A DNA stretch of 64,000 bases from Curtobacterium sp. MCBA15_001 (lineage in GTDB: Bacteria > Actinomycetota > Actinomycetes > Actinomycetales > Microbacteriaceae). The translations under genes and the position numbers were made by a program. Location of the stretch: contig NZ_MJGI01000027.1 in the NCBI RefSeq assembly GCF_001864835.1, forward strand, positions 1 to 64,000. Reading direction: 5' to 3'. Below, in pieces: positions 55,754 to 60,266 of the stretch (its first letter is position 1; each line of letters begins with the position of its first letter). Below the pieces are notes generated by a model. That model was not told the origin of the DNA and made no database searches. It saw nothing but the letters and a program-made list of their open reading frames with translations.

Positions 55754-56122
55754 TCAGCGCCGCGCGAGCAGCGCCCCCAGGTAGGACGGTGCGGCGGCGA
55801 CCGCGACCTTCCAGTGTGCTCTCGCTCGGGGGTCGGTGCGCGGGGCGACCGCGAGCGGCACGAGAGCCGGCAGCAGGAACAACGCCGACCGGTCTCGTGT
55901 CCACAGCGGGGTCGTGGCCGCGACGCCGGTCAAGGTGGCCGTCACGACGAACAGTCCGTGGTGGACGACCCGGAGCTTCCTCGTCCGGATCAGCCGGACG
56001 GCGACGGCCGTGCCCCAGAGGCAGTTCGCGACGTAGGCGACGCTCGCAGCCGTGACCAGACGCCGGGCGGGACGCGATCCCGTGGGAGCCGCACCGGGCC
56101 TCCTGGCCGTCCTGGGTCCCAT
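55754..56122 (-). CDS. Small membrane protein, unknown
   Basis: A 122-residue protein with three hydrophobic segments (about 27-43, 53-72, 82-95). No family is recognised. Its first codons include a repeat-derived ARRPGAA stretch. It lies between the nitroreductase gene and the M50 protease gene and reads in the same direction. Confidence 0.6.
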
Positions 56123-56131
56123 GGACTCAGC

Positions 56132-56893
56132 CTAGGCGGAGTGCTTTCCGGACGGCAGAGTCGTCGTCGAGCCGTGGAGCAGCACCTTGCCATCGGTCGA
56201 GAGTGGGATCAGCCCGAAGAGGTTGACGACCAGCAGCACCGAAGCGGTGTACTGGGAGACGACATCTCCAGGGCGAAGCGTCCAGTACGCAACGGCGAAG
56301 ACCGCCCCTGCGACGGGACCAGCGGAGGCGATCAGTCGAGCGCGATACCCGCAGACCGCGGGATGGAGCACCGCGACGACGCGAGACGAACAGATGACCG
56401 CACCACGTCCAGGTCCGACGAGCACTCGGACCGCCACCAGGTGTGCTGTCTCGTGCACGCCGACACAGAAGAGCATCGCAACAGGAGCAGCGACCGCCGC
56501 CCAGGTCGTCTCTGCCGATGCGCCGACCGCCAAGAAAGAAACACCGAGTGCCCCGGACATGACTGCGGTCGCTAGGCCCCACACCGATGCGAGTGCTCGG
56601 AACGCCGCAGTGGCAACGGCTAGCCGTCTGTCGCTGGGGACGACTCGACGGCGAGCGCTGCCGAGTACGTGGATGGCGCGTGCCGCTGCGACATCTTCGA
56701 CACCGGACTCTGCGATGGTGTTCCTCCGGTGCCGCGCTGGGGCATGTGCGAGCCCGTTCTGGAGGAGGACTGCGCTGATCTCGTACACGCTGCCTTGGAC
56801 GACCGCATCGAAACCGGTGGGAAGGTCAACGAGCTGATGTCCCGCGGCGACCTGACGTATGACGACACCTTCGTGGGGGCGGAGCGGCCTCAA
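56132..56893 (-). CDS. M50 (site-2-type) metalloprotease of peptide cassette
   Basis: A 253-residue protein with at least four hydrophobic segments after about residue 90. The zinc motif HETAH (in CVGVHETAHLVAV, about 147) and the second-site NLFGLIPLSTDGK (about 227-239) match M50 intramembrane proteases. The N-terminal 60 residues (QLVDLPTGFDAVV region) weakly resemble PqqD/RRE-like peptide-binding domains. The start is TTG at 56893, overlapping the permease stop (TTGA). It probably cleaves the cassette peptide inside the membrane. Confidence 0.8.
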   Translation of the reverse strand: MRPLRPHEGVVIRQVAAGHQLVDLPTGFDAVVQGSVYEISAVLLQNGLAHAPARHRRNTIAESGVEDVAAARAIHVLGSARRRVVPSDRRLAVATAAFRALASVWGLATAVMSGALGVSFLAVGASAETTWAAVAAPVAMLFCVGVHETAHLVAVRVLVGPGRGAVICSSRVVAVLHPAVCGYRARLIASAGPVAGAVFAVAYWTLRPGDVVSQYTASVLLVVNLFGLIPLSTDGKVLLHGSTTTLPSGKHSA

Positions 56894-58314
56894 GAGAGAA
56901 CGGATGTCATCCTCCGATGCCGAACAGCGAACGGCGAGACTGTCATCAGGAGCAGACCAAGCAACACAGAGACAGCCGCTCCCAGTGGAGGCGGAGCGGA
57001 GTCGTCCACGAGCACGCTCGGGAATGCAGTGAGCGCAGCCGTCAGGATCGCCGCGAGCACACCTGCACCGGGGAGGTCGAGATCGCTCGGGAAGGCAACT
57101 CCAGCGAGGACGGCGGAGCAGAGGCACAGCCACACCGCTGGCAGGATCAGCAACCAGGTCGGAGAATCGAAGATCGGCGTCCCGATGAAGACGGACGCAG
57201 CCGCGATGGCCACGACGACGCCGGCGGCGACCATTGCGACGACGCTTGTCGTGTTCCACGGGTCGGAGCGGATCGAGATCACGAGCGATCGACGCCACAG
57301 AGTCCTCCTGTCGGTGGAGTAGAGGGGAAGGAGGAGGGCTGCTGGTGTTCCGATGACAGCAATCTGGAACAGCAGGCCCTGGATGTCGGGCTCAGCGATG
57401 ATCGCCACGCCGACGCGGGTCCCGATCAACAGCGCTGCGACGATCACGAGCGACGAGGTCATCATCGGGTCCCTGAGAGCAAGCAACGCCGCCGTGCTCC
57501 CACGGTGTGAGCTGACGAACCGCGGGAGCCGGCGCGCGAAGCCTGCCGTTTCGGGGGGTCCTGAGGCGCGCGTGGTCTTCACGACTGCCAGAAGCAGCCC
57601 GACAGCAACGAGTGTGACGACGAGCGCCGCAACAGTCGCGGTGACGAAGCGGAGCGGTCCAGCCCCAGACAGCGACGCTACCCACGTCGAGGTCGTGAGA
57701 GTTCGGTAGGCGACGACTGCACCGCAGATCGTTGCGACGGCAGCGACGCTCGTGGCAGTCGCGTCACCCCGTCCCAGGGTGCTGGCGACTCGCCGGATGC
57801 CGTGGATCGACGCGGAGGCACCGCAGGAGGAGCCCACTCCGAGGATGATCGCGGCAGCCGTTGTGAACGCCGCGTCAGCACCACCGATCAGCGCTGTGCC
57901 AGAAGCGAGCAGGGGGGCAAGGACGACTGGGGCGAGAGTGCTCGAGACGATGACGGTCGGTGCGGCCATGGCGAAGGAACGTGCTCCTCGGCTGATCGGT
58001 GCACTCGCGAGCATCGTGTCCAACGACCGGATGCTCGGAGCAAGAACGGTCAGCACGCTGGTGATGCACGCACTGGCCAGCCCCGTCCCGAGGGCACTCT
58101 CGACGAGGACCTGCGTCCGGAGCGCCGACGGTATCCGGTCATCTCCCACTCCGGAGAACGCCGTCACCACCGCGAACACCAGCCAAGCGAGGACGAGTAC
58201 GACGACACCGGACAGCACGGCATGTGTGCGCCAGCGTCTGCCCGTCACGCTTCGAGTCACGTCCCCCATCCAGACGGCCCCGACGAGCCGGCTGACCCGC
58301 ACGACGTCACGCAC
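56890..58314 (-). CDS. Large multi-pass membrane protein (ABC permease-like) of peptide cassette
   Basis: A 474-residue protein with about 12 hydrophobic segments, no identified family, and a soluble loop around residues 265-290. It sits between the ABC ATPase/small membrane gene and the M50 gene, so it is best explained as the permease of the exporter. GTG at 58314 overlaps the upstream stop by 8 bases; ATG at 58266 is an alternative start. Codon use is less GC-rich than in neighbouring genes. Confidence 0.72.
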   Translation of the reverse strand: MRDVVRVSRLVGAVWMGDVTRSVTGRRWRTHAVLSGVVVLVLAWLVFAVVTAFSGVGDDRIPSALRTQVLVESALGTGLASACITSVLTVLAPSIRSLDTMLASAPISRGARSFAMAAPTVIVSSTLAPVVLAPLLASGTALIGGADAAFTTAAAIILGVGSSCGASASIHGIRRVASTLGRGDATATSVAAVATICGAVVAYRTLTTSTWVASLSGAGPLRFVTATVAALVVTLVAVGLLLAVVKTTRASGPPETAGFARRLPRFVSSHRGSTAALLALRDPMMTSSLVIVAALLIGTRVGVAIIAEPDIQGLLFQIAVIGTPAALLLPLYSTDRRTLWRRSLVISIRSDPWNTTSVVAMVAAGVVVAIAAASVFIGTPIFDSPTWLLILPAVWLCLCSAVLAGVAFPSDLDLPGAGVLAAILTAALTAFPSVLVDDSAPPPLGAAVSVLLGLLLMTVSPFAVRHRRMTSVLS

Positions 58315-58597
58315 GACGCCGAAGGCGGCGCGCACCTCGGAGGTGGTCGCCGACCAGCAAGACGACGAACAGCGATGCTGAAGCGCCAAGCCACCACACG
58401 ATGATCCCGGCGCCGTCGAGACTCACGCTGGCGAGTTCTGATCCGGCTCCGGACACGACGCGGACGAGTCCTGGCAGCGCGATGTCCACGCCCCGGGACG
58501 TCGACGCGATCAACGCCACAGCAGCGGCGACGAACAGCAGGACGGGTGCAACCACCATCGCGGACGAAGCCGTGATCAGGAGCTTGACGATGGACAT
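58307..58597 (-). CDS. Small two-pass membrane protein of peptide cassette
   Basis: A 96-residue protein: helices at about 5-31 and 62-83, and a basic C-terminus (RGARRLRRRA). AAAGGAA precedes the ATG. It overlaps the following permease start. It may be an immunity or exporter subunit; no family is recognised. Confidence 0.7.
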   Translation of the reverse strand: MSIVKLLITASSAMVVAPVLLFVAAAVALIASTSRGVDIALPGLVRVVSGAGSELASVSLDGAGIIVWWLGASASLFVVLLVGDHLRGARRLRRRA

Positions 58598-58608
58598 GGT
58601 TGTTCCTT

Positions 58609-59376
58609 TCAGGTGGAGAGTGCGGCAGTGAGGTCGGCGTGGATCGAAGCTGTGTCCGAGACGCCGGTGAGACGGAGCATGACGTCTTCGAGGGAGGCAG
58701 CATCGGTTTCAGCGATGAGCTGCGCGGGTCGACCGTCGGCGACGATTCGCCCGTGATCGAGCAGGACGATTCGCTCGAACCAGTGTTCAGCAGCGAGGAC
58801 GTCATGGGTGGCGACGAGCACGGCAGACCCGGTCTCACGCATTGCATCGACGAGCGCGCGGATGACGACCACAGCGTGTGGATCGAGCCCCCGGAATGGT
58901 TCGTCCATCACGATCATCGACGGTCGGTGTGCGACGGCCCCGACGATCTGGAGCTTCTTCTTCGTTCCGTGAGACATCTCACCGATGAACTTGTCGAGGT
59001 GCGTTGTCAGCGCGAGCCGCTCGACGATCGCGTTCCTCCACGGACGATGATCGCGACGACCGCGAAGTCGATCCAGGTGCTCGAGGTACTCGACGCCCGT
59101 CAGGGAAGACGGAATCGGAAGTTCGTCGGGGACGAATCCGATCTGCTGTTTCGCCTGGATTGACGAGTGCGTCAGGCCGTCTACCTCGAGGAGATCGGCG
59201 TCGATCTCATGGATCCCGACCAGGCCGTGAACCAGGGTCGACTTTCCACTTCCGTTGGGACCGAGGAGTGCGACGAGCTCTCCGGGCCCGACCTCGAGGT
59301 CAACCCCGGAGAGACCGCGCGTGCCGCTTCGGTACCTCTTCGAACAGTCCAGCGCGAGAAGGCGGGGATGCGTCAC
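58609..59376 (-). CDS. ABC transporter ATP-binding protein of peptide cassette
   Basis: A 255-residue ATPase: Walker A GPNGSGKST (about 40), signature MSHGTKKKL (about 134), Walker B MIVMDEPFRGLD. The type is typical of bacteriocin/antibiotic efflux and immunity ABC systems. It starts 10 bases after the peptide gene. With the two membrane proteins it likely forms an exporter. Confidence 0.88.
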   Translation of the reverse strand: MTHPRLLALDCSKRYRSGTRGLSGVDLEVGPGELVALLGPNGSGKSTLVHGLVGIHEIDADLLEVDGLTHSSIQAKQQIGFVPDELPIPSSLTGVEYLEHLDRLRGRRDHRPWRNAIVERLALTTHLDKFIGEMSHGTKKKLQIVGAVAHRPSMIVMDEPFRGLDPHAVVVIRALVDAMRETGSAVLVATHDVLAAEHWFERIVLLDHGRIVADGRPAQLIAETDAASLEDVMLRLTGVSDTASIHADLTAALST

Positions 59377-59386
59377 GGCCGTCGTG

Positions 59387-59650
59387 TCACTTGAAGCAGC
59401 TGAACTTGACGTTCGCGTTCAGAGGATTGTTCCAGCTGATGTTCACGATGGCACTGAATCCGCGGTAGCCATGGGAGATGCACGATGCCGTGAGGTAGGC
59501 AACGAGACCAAGCCCCAGAACGATCGCCGCGGCGACCACGATGATGAGGACCGGATTGTGACTGGACGCGACCCGATCGAGGACTCGATCACGTGCGCTC
59601 AAGGCCAGGATGTTCGCTTGGACCGGGATGGTCGAGACTGCAAGAGACAT
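59387..59650 (-). CDS. Putative peptide precursor, single-pass, two cysteines
   Basis: An 87-residue protein. Residues 1-32 are a hydrophilic leader with Arg20/22/26; residues 33-55 (PVLIIVVAAAIVLGLGLVAY) are one membrane helix; residues 57-87 (CISHGYRGFSAIV ... KFSCFK) carry Cys57 and Cys85. Arg-rich leader and hydrophobic core imply N-in/C-out topology, the substrate type of M50 proteases. GGAAGGAAG precedes ATG at 59650. No family is recognised; a bacteriocin or signal precursor is my inference. The C-terminal codons (59401-59460) are about 48% GC. Confidence 0.75.
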   Translation of the reverse strand: MSLAVSTIPVQANILALSARDRVLDRVASSHNPVLIIVVAAAIVLGLGLVAYLTASCISHGYRGFSAIVNISWNNPLNANVKFSCFK

Positions 59651-59667
59651 CAGCACTTCCTTCCGTA

Positions 59668-59733
59668 TGCCGGGCAACGCCTCGGCACCGCCGATCCGAG
59701 GTGACCTCGGATGCCGGACCTCGTTGCCCGGCA
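59668..59733. promoter_or_regulatory. Nested inverted repeat in leader of the peptide operon
   Basis: Outer arms TGCCGGGCAACG (59668-59679) and CGTTGCCCGGCA (59722-59733) are perfect complements over 12 bases. An inner perfect 19-base palindrome, ATCCGAGGT-G-ACCTCGGAT (59694-59712), lies at the centre. It starts about where the transcript should begin, so it may be a folded 5' UTR or the operator of a regulator. Confidence 0.6.
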
Positions 59734-59739
59734 CGACCG

Positions 59740-59768
59740 AACGTAGCACCTGAGATTTCAGGTGTCAC
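59740..59768 (-). promoter_or_regulatory. Promoter of the peptide cassette with overlapping operator
   Basis: On the minus strand GTGACA (-35, 59768-59763) and TACGTT (-10, 59745-59740) are separated by 17 bases, close to the consensus. The spacer holds the inverted repeat ACCTGA-N4-TCAGGT (59748-59763 on the plus strand), placed to block RNA polymerase. TCAGGT also occurs just before the start of the neighbouring Lrp-type gene. Confidence 0.6.
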
Positions 59769-59828
59769 GCACCATCATCGATGTCGAATGAGCGTGGACG
59801 ATCCGGAATGTCAGCCCCGTGGCTGGAG

Positions 59829-60266
59829 TCAGACGGACTCGCGCGAGACCAGGCGGGACAGCACGATCGCGGACCGGGTGTGGTCCACCTGCGGGGCCAA
59901 CCGGACGCGGTCGAGGGCTTCTTCGAGCGCCGGCAGGTCCCGCGAGCGCATGTGCACGACGGCGTCGGCGCTGCCGGTGACGGTGCCGGCGTCGACCACC
60001 TCGGGCACGGCGTCGAGCAGCGACCGGAGTTCGTCGGGCGAGACCGTGCCGCGGCAGTACAGCTCGACCCATGCCTCGGTGCCCCGGTCCTCGACCGCGG
60101 GGTCGACCTTGATCGTGAAGCCGCGGATGACGCCGTCGGCCACCAGCCGGTCGACGCGACGCTTGACGGCCGAGGCCGAGAGTCCGACCACCGACCCGAT
60201 GTCGCCGTAGCCGGCGCGGGCGTTGTCCCGGAGTCGATCCAGGATGCGGTGGTCGAGCGAATCCAT
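59829..60266 (-). CDS. Lrp/AsnC-family transcriptional regulator
   Basis: A 145-residue regulator: LDHRILDRLRDNARAGYGDIGSVVGLSASAVKRRVDRLVADGVI (residues 4-47) spans the HTH, followed by a RAM ligand domain (TVTGSADAVVHMRSRDLPALEEAL). Start ATG at 60266 is preceded by TAGAGT eight bases upstream. It is divergent from the dimethylargininase/ornithine aminotransferase genes and likely regulates them in response to an amino acid. Confidence 0.92.
   Translation of the reverse strand: MDSLDHRILDRLRDNARAGYGDIGSVVGLSASAVKRRVDRLVADGVIRGFTIKVDPAVEDRGTEAWVELYCRGTVSPDELRSLLDAVPEVVDAGTVTGSADAVVHMRSRDLPALEEALDRVRLAPQVDHTRSAIVLSRLVSRESV

Follow-up and report, generated by a model that had tools for sequence, protein, structure and literature searches.

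Five genes on the minus strand at positions 56132–59650 of a 64,000-nucleotide stretch of Curtobacterium sp. MCBA15_001 DNA (contig NZ_MJGI01000027.1; the whole stretch is termed the window) most probably make up a horizontally acquired operon for a bacteriocin of the TMcin type. This class is represented by the Staphylococcus aureus G1905 cluster (Dickey et al., Nat Commun 2025; Nur et al., bioRxiv 2026; PMC12328743, PMC13252029), whose gene names are used here for the putative counterparts. Reading leftward, these are a tmcA-like precursor of 87 amino acids (aa) (59387–59650), a tmcB-like ABC ATPase of 255 aa (58609–59376), a tmcE-like small protein of 96 aa (58307–58597), a tmcC-like permease of about 474 aa (56890–58314) and a tmcP-like S2P-type intramembrane metalloprotease of about 253 aa (56132–56893). 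The open reading frames are tightly packed: 10 bp separate the precursor and ATPase genes and 11 bp the ATPase and 96-aa genes, the 96-aa gene overlaps the permease start by 8 bp and the permease gene overlaps the protease start by 4 bp. The start codons of the permease (GTG, 58314) and the protease (TTG, 56893) are inferred; a program-listed 388-aa frame starting at 57298 is an unlikely extent for the protease and overlaps the permease. The tmcB, tmcC and tmcP roles are set by protein type and place, and that of tmcE by size and topology only. An earlier sequence-only reading had noted the five leftward, closely packed genes, as is found here, and had proposed a new peptide maturation system in which an M50 protease frees a disulfide-linked tail of about 30 residues.

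The five genes are found in one order in all four operons located: that of the window and those of G434 (locus L018), Microbacteriaceae bacterium PS02332 (L019) and G105 (L057/L058). All four precursor copies lie within a full operon, and none was found apart from the protease and ABC genes. The sequence-only reading had suggested looking for joint recurrence; its occurrence in three further genomes supports the view that precursor, membrane metalloprotease and ABC pair are one peptide-maturation unit. Given this ordered recurrence, and 40 invariant columns of 87 among the three closer precursors, the gene set is beyond chance. Relative to the window, identities in L018 and L019 are 62% and 59% for the ATPase, 52% and 58% for the precursor, 38% and 30% for the 96-aa protein, 34% and 36% for the permease and 31% and 30% for the protease; the precursor is thus better conserved than the three membrane proteins. 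The G105 operon is far more distant. Its ATPase is 40% identical over 211 aligned positions, its precursor is 27% identical with the helix aligned (hhalign prob 68 over 40 columns), and its permease aligns with the other permeases over 395 columns (prob 71, E-value = 3.8e-5).

The precursor displays a single hydropathy peak at residues 34–52 and exactly two Cys, C57 and C85, as the sequence-only reading had described; one peak and exactly two Cys are found in all four copies. Its plan appears to be a putative leader (about residues 1–32), a transmembrane helix (TMH, about 33–56) and a predicted hairpin running from Cys57 to Cys85. An AlphaFold2 (AF2) model with three sequences as input, a check that the sequence-only reading had also suggested, shows a helix at 33–59 and strands at 64–72 and 78–86. 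Confidence is modest (mean predicted local distance difference test score, pLDDT, 63.5; block means of 60–69 over residues 61–87). The strands sit between the two Cys, and a Cys57–Cys85 disulfide is likely, in line with the disulfide-linked C-terminus proposed earlier. Invariant columns in the three closer copies number 17 of 24 in the helix, 16 of 31 in the tail and 7 of 32 in the leader. Conservation is highest in the helix, which would be expected of a segment retained in the product. When cleavage is set 24 residues ahead of the first Cys, the position in S. aureus, the result is a peptide of 55 residues with a mass of 5807 Da before disulfide formation; the cut near residue 32 is placed by this analogy. 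The product is therefore probably, by comparison with TMcins, a helix-retaining peptide of about 55 residues and not a freed tail of about 30.

The ATPase is the only one of the five operon proteins with a Pfam match over the cut-off (ABC_tran, E-value = 1.8e-20). No NCBIfam match over the cut-off is seen for any of the five among the matches listed (for the ATPase, the best 25 of 196), and the 96-aa protein shows no family over the cut-off in either database. Hydropathy peaks of the permease number 12, 12, 12 and 11 across the four copies. The 96-aa protein displays peaks at 13–31 and 65–83, and a two-peak protein of 86–99 aa holds the same position in all four operons, that of G105 included. 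By size and two predicted helices it matches the TmcE escort protein as a candidate counterpart.

The protease carries HETAH at 147–151, and the segment NLFGLIPLSTDG at 224–235 holds Asp234, 87 residues on. The four copies show HETAH, HEAGH, HEAAH and HEAGH, each together with a DG. The feature of S2P/M50 proteases, HExxH plus a distal Asp within membrane helices, is present, and the AF2 model draws four long helices. The sequence-only reading had called the enzyme an M50 protease; its match to the Pfam M50 family falls below the cut-off. A search of the protease profile against solved chains gave a single row, SpoIVFB, with an E-value of 1.7.

These parts match those of the TMcin cluster as published (PMC12328743, PMC13252029). 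There a 297-bp gene encodes a precursor of 98 aa, of which 45 residues form the leader. The 5.8-kDa product, with 53 residues implied, combines a membrane helix with a two-stranded sheet that Cys25–Cys50 holds in place. TmcB/TmcC form the transporter, whose permease has 12 TMHs; TmcE is an escort with two TMHs, and TmcP is an S2P-type HExxH protease with Asp158 90 residues after His68. The described steps are removal of the leader by the intramembrane protease with retention of the helix, export by ABC proteins with extraction from the membrane, and killing by pores. The operon in the window likewise combines a precursor with a leader, one TMH, two conserved Cys and a two-stranded C-terminal hairpin (AF2 prediction) with an ATPase, a 12-TMH permease, a candidate two-TMH escort and an HExxH protease with a distal Asp. 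The HExxH-to-Asp distance is 87 residues (147 to 234) vs 90 in S. aureus TmcP (68 to 158), the predicted product of 55 residues and 5.81 kDa compares with the implied 53 residues and 5.8 kDa, and the protease is the only modification enzyme of the core operon.

Differences from the S. aureus cluster are found as well. The window operon lies on a 366-kb contig, whereas the S. aureus cluster is on a small plasmid, and its order is A-B-E-C-P, whereas the S. aureus core operon begins with tmcB and ends with tmcA, tmcP taking fourth place. Among the open reading frames scanned here neither tmcD nor a regulator operon is present; the DsbA-like TmcD is described as missing from non-staphylococcal TMcin clusters (PMC12328743, PMC13252029). 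The window protease falls outside Pfam DUF3267 and has about 80 extra N-terminal residues, its HExxH lying 79 residues farther from the N-terminus than that of TmcP. The Cys-Cys spacing is 28 vs 25 in S. aureus, with 24 (58 to 82) in the G105 precursor (L058:5680-5931, minus strand), whose helix ends in TAWWIAC. By these features the G105 precursor resembles the S. aureus TMcin, as described, more closely than the window's own does. Homologues of TMcins are reported from Bacillota and Actinomycetota in three gene arrangements (PMC12328743, PMC13252029), and the chromosome NC_006270.3 is named as carrying one homologous system (PMC12328743). The published Actinomycetota homologues may include these operons; the words Curtobacterium and Microbacteriaceae occur 0 times in the main texts of the two papers. 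TMcin clusters are stated to have escaped standard genome mining (PMC12328743). Since the published cluster has the same parts, the novelty claimed in the sequence-only reading falls away, and the operon looks like a rare, mobile TMcin relative with a divergent protease and gene order and not like a wholly new system.

The genes, recurrence, motifs, predicted fold and insertion come from the present analysis; for the enzymatic steps, secretion and killing the account follows S. aureus by analogy. The precursor would accordingly enter the membrane so that its N-terminal leader stays on the inner side, and its C-terminal 31 residues would form an outside beta-hairpin closed by Cys57–Cys85. Since tmcD is not among the five genes, the disulfide would perhaps be made by general host enzymes of the DsbA/VKOR type. 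The host genome shows three PF13462 (DsbA-like) matches and one VKOR match over the cut-off, so that disulfide formation without tmcD is plausible. The two-helix 96-aa protein would escort the precursor and the S2P-type protease would cut near residue 32 to remove the leader; the ATPase-permease pair would extract the mature helix-containing peptide of about 55 residues (about 5.8 kDa) from the membrane. The sequence-only reading had the ABC proteins either export the peptide or protect the cell; by the TMcin precedent the transporter extracts the product from the membrane. The secreted peptide may then enter the membranes of Gram-positive competitors and oligomerise into pores.

A distance of roughly 1 kb separates a DsbA-like (PF13462) match from a VKOR match on one strand (G000 C6:106175-108122); the two are likely a disulfide-forming pair of the host.

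Several results weigh against a TMcin assignment. The likeness is drawn from the published description of the parts. Trp beside the helix is absent from the window, L018 and L019 precursors, and a helix-flanking Trp is called highly conserved, although not universal, in TMcins (PMC12328743, PMC13252029); it is treated here as typical and not defining. The one such feature found is the Trp-Trp at the C-terminal helix end of the G105 copy. The window protease shows only two hydropathy peaks over the threshold vs 4, 5 and 4 in the other copies, and the mean pLDDT of its model is 57.2, which like that of the precursor model is modest. Foldseek gave no significant match for the precursor model, nor did Foldseek/VIA for the protease model, and no solved S2P is present among the matches listed for the protease. 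The TmcE-like proteins of the two operon types show no significant similarity to each other (prob 1.4). The window protease reaches the cut-off of no Pfam family; DUF3267 is not among the matches of the three closer proteases, and that of G105 falls below the DUF3267 cut-off (E-value = 0.61). Compared by profile, DUF3267 and the protease align over 79 columns with prob 63.6, vs 3.0 for the G105 protease and 0.3 for the permease profile as a control. With these two scores the value of 63.6 counts weakly, and gives weak support for clan kinship only.

Other explanations were weighed against a TMcin-type operon. An intramembrane cut could free the disulfide-linked tail of about 30 residues as a pheromone-like signal, which the ABC proteins would export or sense. 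The topology and protease type suit such a release, and across the three closer copies the tail keeps 16 of its 31 columns unchanged. Conservation is nevertheless higher in the helix (17 of 24 columns), as expected of a part of the product, and the helix is retained in the published TMcin match, where the protease removes a leader. There is also no receptor or regulator among the five genes, and the adjoining lrp/AsnC gene occurs in 66 of 66 genus genomes. A signal of this kind is unlikely. Very unlikely is a stress or housekeeping module, in which regulated proteolysis would act on the small helix protein while lipids or drugs would be moved by the ABC proteins. ABC proteins and S2P proteases do have many housekeeping roles, but this operon occurs in only 3 of 66 genus genomes, as a block inserted where relatives have an empty site, and toxins that change rapidly would better account for finding two very divergent types at a single site.

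Epipeptide clusters (EpeX/YydF) combine an M50-type intramembrane protease, EpeP, with ABC proteins, as is found here, and a system of this type with the ABC pair serving self-protection would account for these parts. However no radical SAM gene, the epimerase of such clusters, is present among the eight open reading frames scanned, as had been noted earlier, and the precursor carries instead a TMH and two conserved Cys with a predicted beta-hairpin. An epipeptide system is extremely unlikely. Daptides are produced by Microbacterium, which belongs to the same bacterial family as Curtobacterium. Their leader peptidase MpaP is described as an intramembrane peptidase dependent on a RiPP (ribosomally synthesised and post-translationally modified peptide) recognition element (RRE) (PMC10036551), and the extra domain of the window protease may resemble this arrangement. 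The window precursor, with its Cys hairpin, is unlike daptide precursors, and no decarboxylase, aminotransferase or methyltransferase is found among the eight frames.

A TMcin-type operon acquired by transfer also agrees with its composition and surroundings. The tmcA-like gene has a GC content of 58.2% vs 72.1% for the whole window, and third-position GC (GC3) of the five genes is 0.72–0.78 vs 0.88–0.98 in six neighbours. The inserted segment extends approximately over 56120–59830, between the lrp/AsnC and DUF3817-like genes. The lrp/AsnC proteins of G418 and G419 share 99% identity with that of the window. In both genomes DUF3817-like gene sequence begins within about 100 bp of the lrp stop and nitroreductase gene sequence comes next, with no operon, and G449 shows the same operon-free order in aligned DNA. 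This comparison, read from the DNA, covers six aligned regions of the nine fetched from relatives (L030, L032 and L034 lie outside it); in L028, L029 and L033 other sequence follows lrp. Low GC3 and an empty site in near relatives together point to horizontal acquisition and insertion as a block, and thus the hint of transfer that the sequence-only reading took from low GC is strengthened. No transposase is found by Pfam among the five operon open reading frames. Overall that reading stands as to a peptide-maturation unit, its recurrence and transfer, but not as to novelty or a product of about 30 residues.

The window's operon occupies a different chromosomal site from those of G434 and G105. 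A nuclease gene, which we take to be RecB/TM0106-like, lies upstream in G434 and PS02332 and, by eye from other-frame translations, in G105 also. G434 and G105 further share a neighbour protein of about 158 aa (L018 11587–12066; L058 565–1041; by eye), so that one site holds two unlike operon types.

At this nuclease-side site the operons extend over about 1960–9120 in L018 and about 2450–6300 in L058 and are very divergent, as if cassettes had been swapped.

If the assignment is correct, the operons would extend a recent antimicrobial class to four Microbacteriaceae genomes. The set spans two very unlike precursors, one site with both types and a protease unlike that of S. aureus, and would form a natural comparison set for recognition, cutting and export of a membrane-embedded peptide. 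The products would be candidate new antibacterials against Gram-positives.

A precursor profile detects the precursor in three of 66 Curtobacterium genomes, and a protease query alone in two. The G105 copy came to light in one scan alone, that of the genus with the precursor profile (E-value = 5e-4), and the protease query missed it. Wider scans returned only the window's own copy, whether made with the protease across 398 genomes of the family (E 1e-4), with the precursor profile across 396 of the phylum (E 1e-3) or with the permease profile across 366 of the order (E 1e-6). These scans may miss copies as divergent as that of G105. A single-sequence precursor query of genome contigs gave no relative, and a two-row alignment query led to two loci. 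In the 398 family genomes the precursor gave 14 weak matches beyond itself (E-values of 2.3e-4 to 9.8e-3). No two-Cys precursor is present at the three of these loci inspected (L009, L015, L005); ten of the remaining 11 lie in frames of at least 361 aa, and L006 resembles L005 and has an internal stop. Plasmids, phages and viral contigs gave no relative (one chance row).

The extra N-terminal domain of the protease (residues 1–81) precedes the S2P-type core. Its approximately 80 residues are modelled by AF2 as strand-strand-strand-helix-helix-helix, with block-mean pLDDT of 41–47 over residues 51–80, the second and third helices. The same order is described as required of RRE folds (PMC12710340). 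Foldseek with the protease model gave, among the 50 matches listed of 191, five chains that we take to be RRE or lasso-B1 proteins, none significant, the top one being 6jx3_B (probability 0.60, E-value = 0.66). Pfam shows no match for this domain, and the G105 protease seemingly lacks most of it, with an uncertain start codon. On the model, the protease is only tentatively an RRE-like domain that grips the leader, joined to a non-DUF3267 membrane core of S2P type. Were this so, RRE-dependent leader recognition would occur in a membrane-embedded RiPP pathway, joining the logics of TMcins and daptides, and TMcin clusters would have recruited different S2P-clan proteases.

The 5′ leader of the tmcA-like gene (59660–59770, minus strand) shows two strong hairpins with a fold z-score of −4.75; none of 200 shuffled sequences was as stable. 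The first has 12-bp perfect arms (59668–59679/59722–59733) around a nested stem, and the second spans 59741–59770. A consensus promoter scan found none. The hairpins could be regulatory or a mark of insertion. As a regulatory element shared among operons they were rejected, the leaders of two other operons giving z-scores of only −1.3 and −1.1.

DUF3267 was also tried as a handle on actinobacterial TMcins and rejected. Matches occur in 19 of 198 phylum genomes, and no TMcin-like operon is found in the 3.3-kb stretches around them (6 of 21 loci read); the window's own genome shows no DUF3267 (PF11667) match over the cut-off. One distant actinobacterium has a longer DUF3267 protein (L035:1120-2025, minus strand), whose 301 aa include an extra hydrophobic stretch at the C-terminal end. 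It may resemble the DUF3267 proteins with six helices to which the TMcin preprint links TmcE (PMC13252029).

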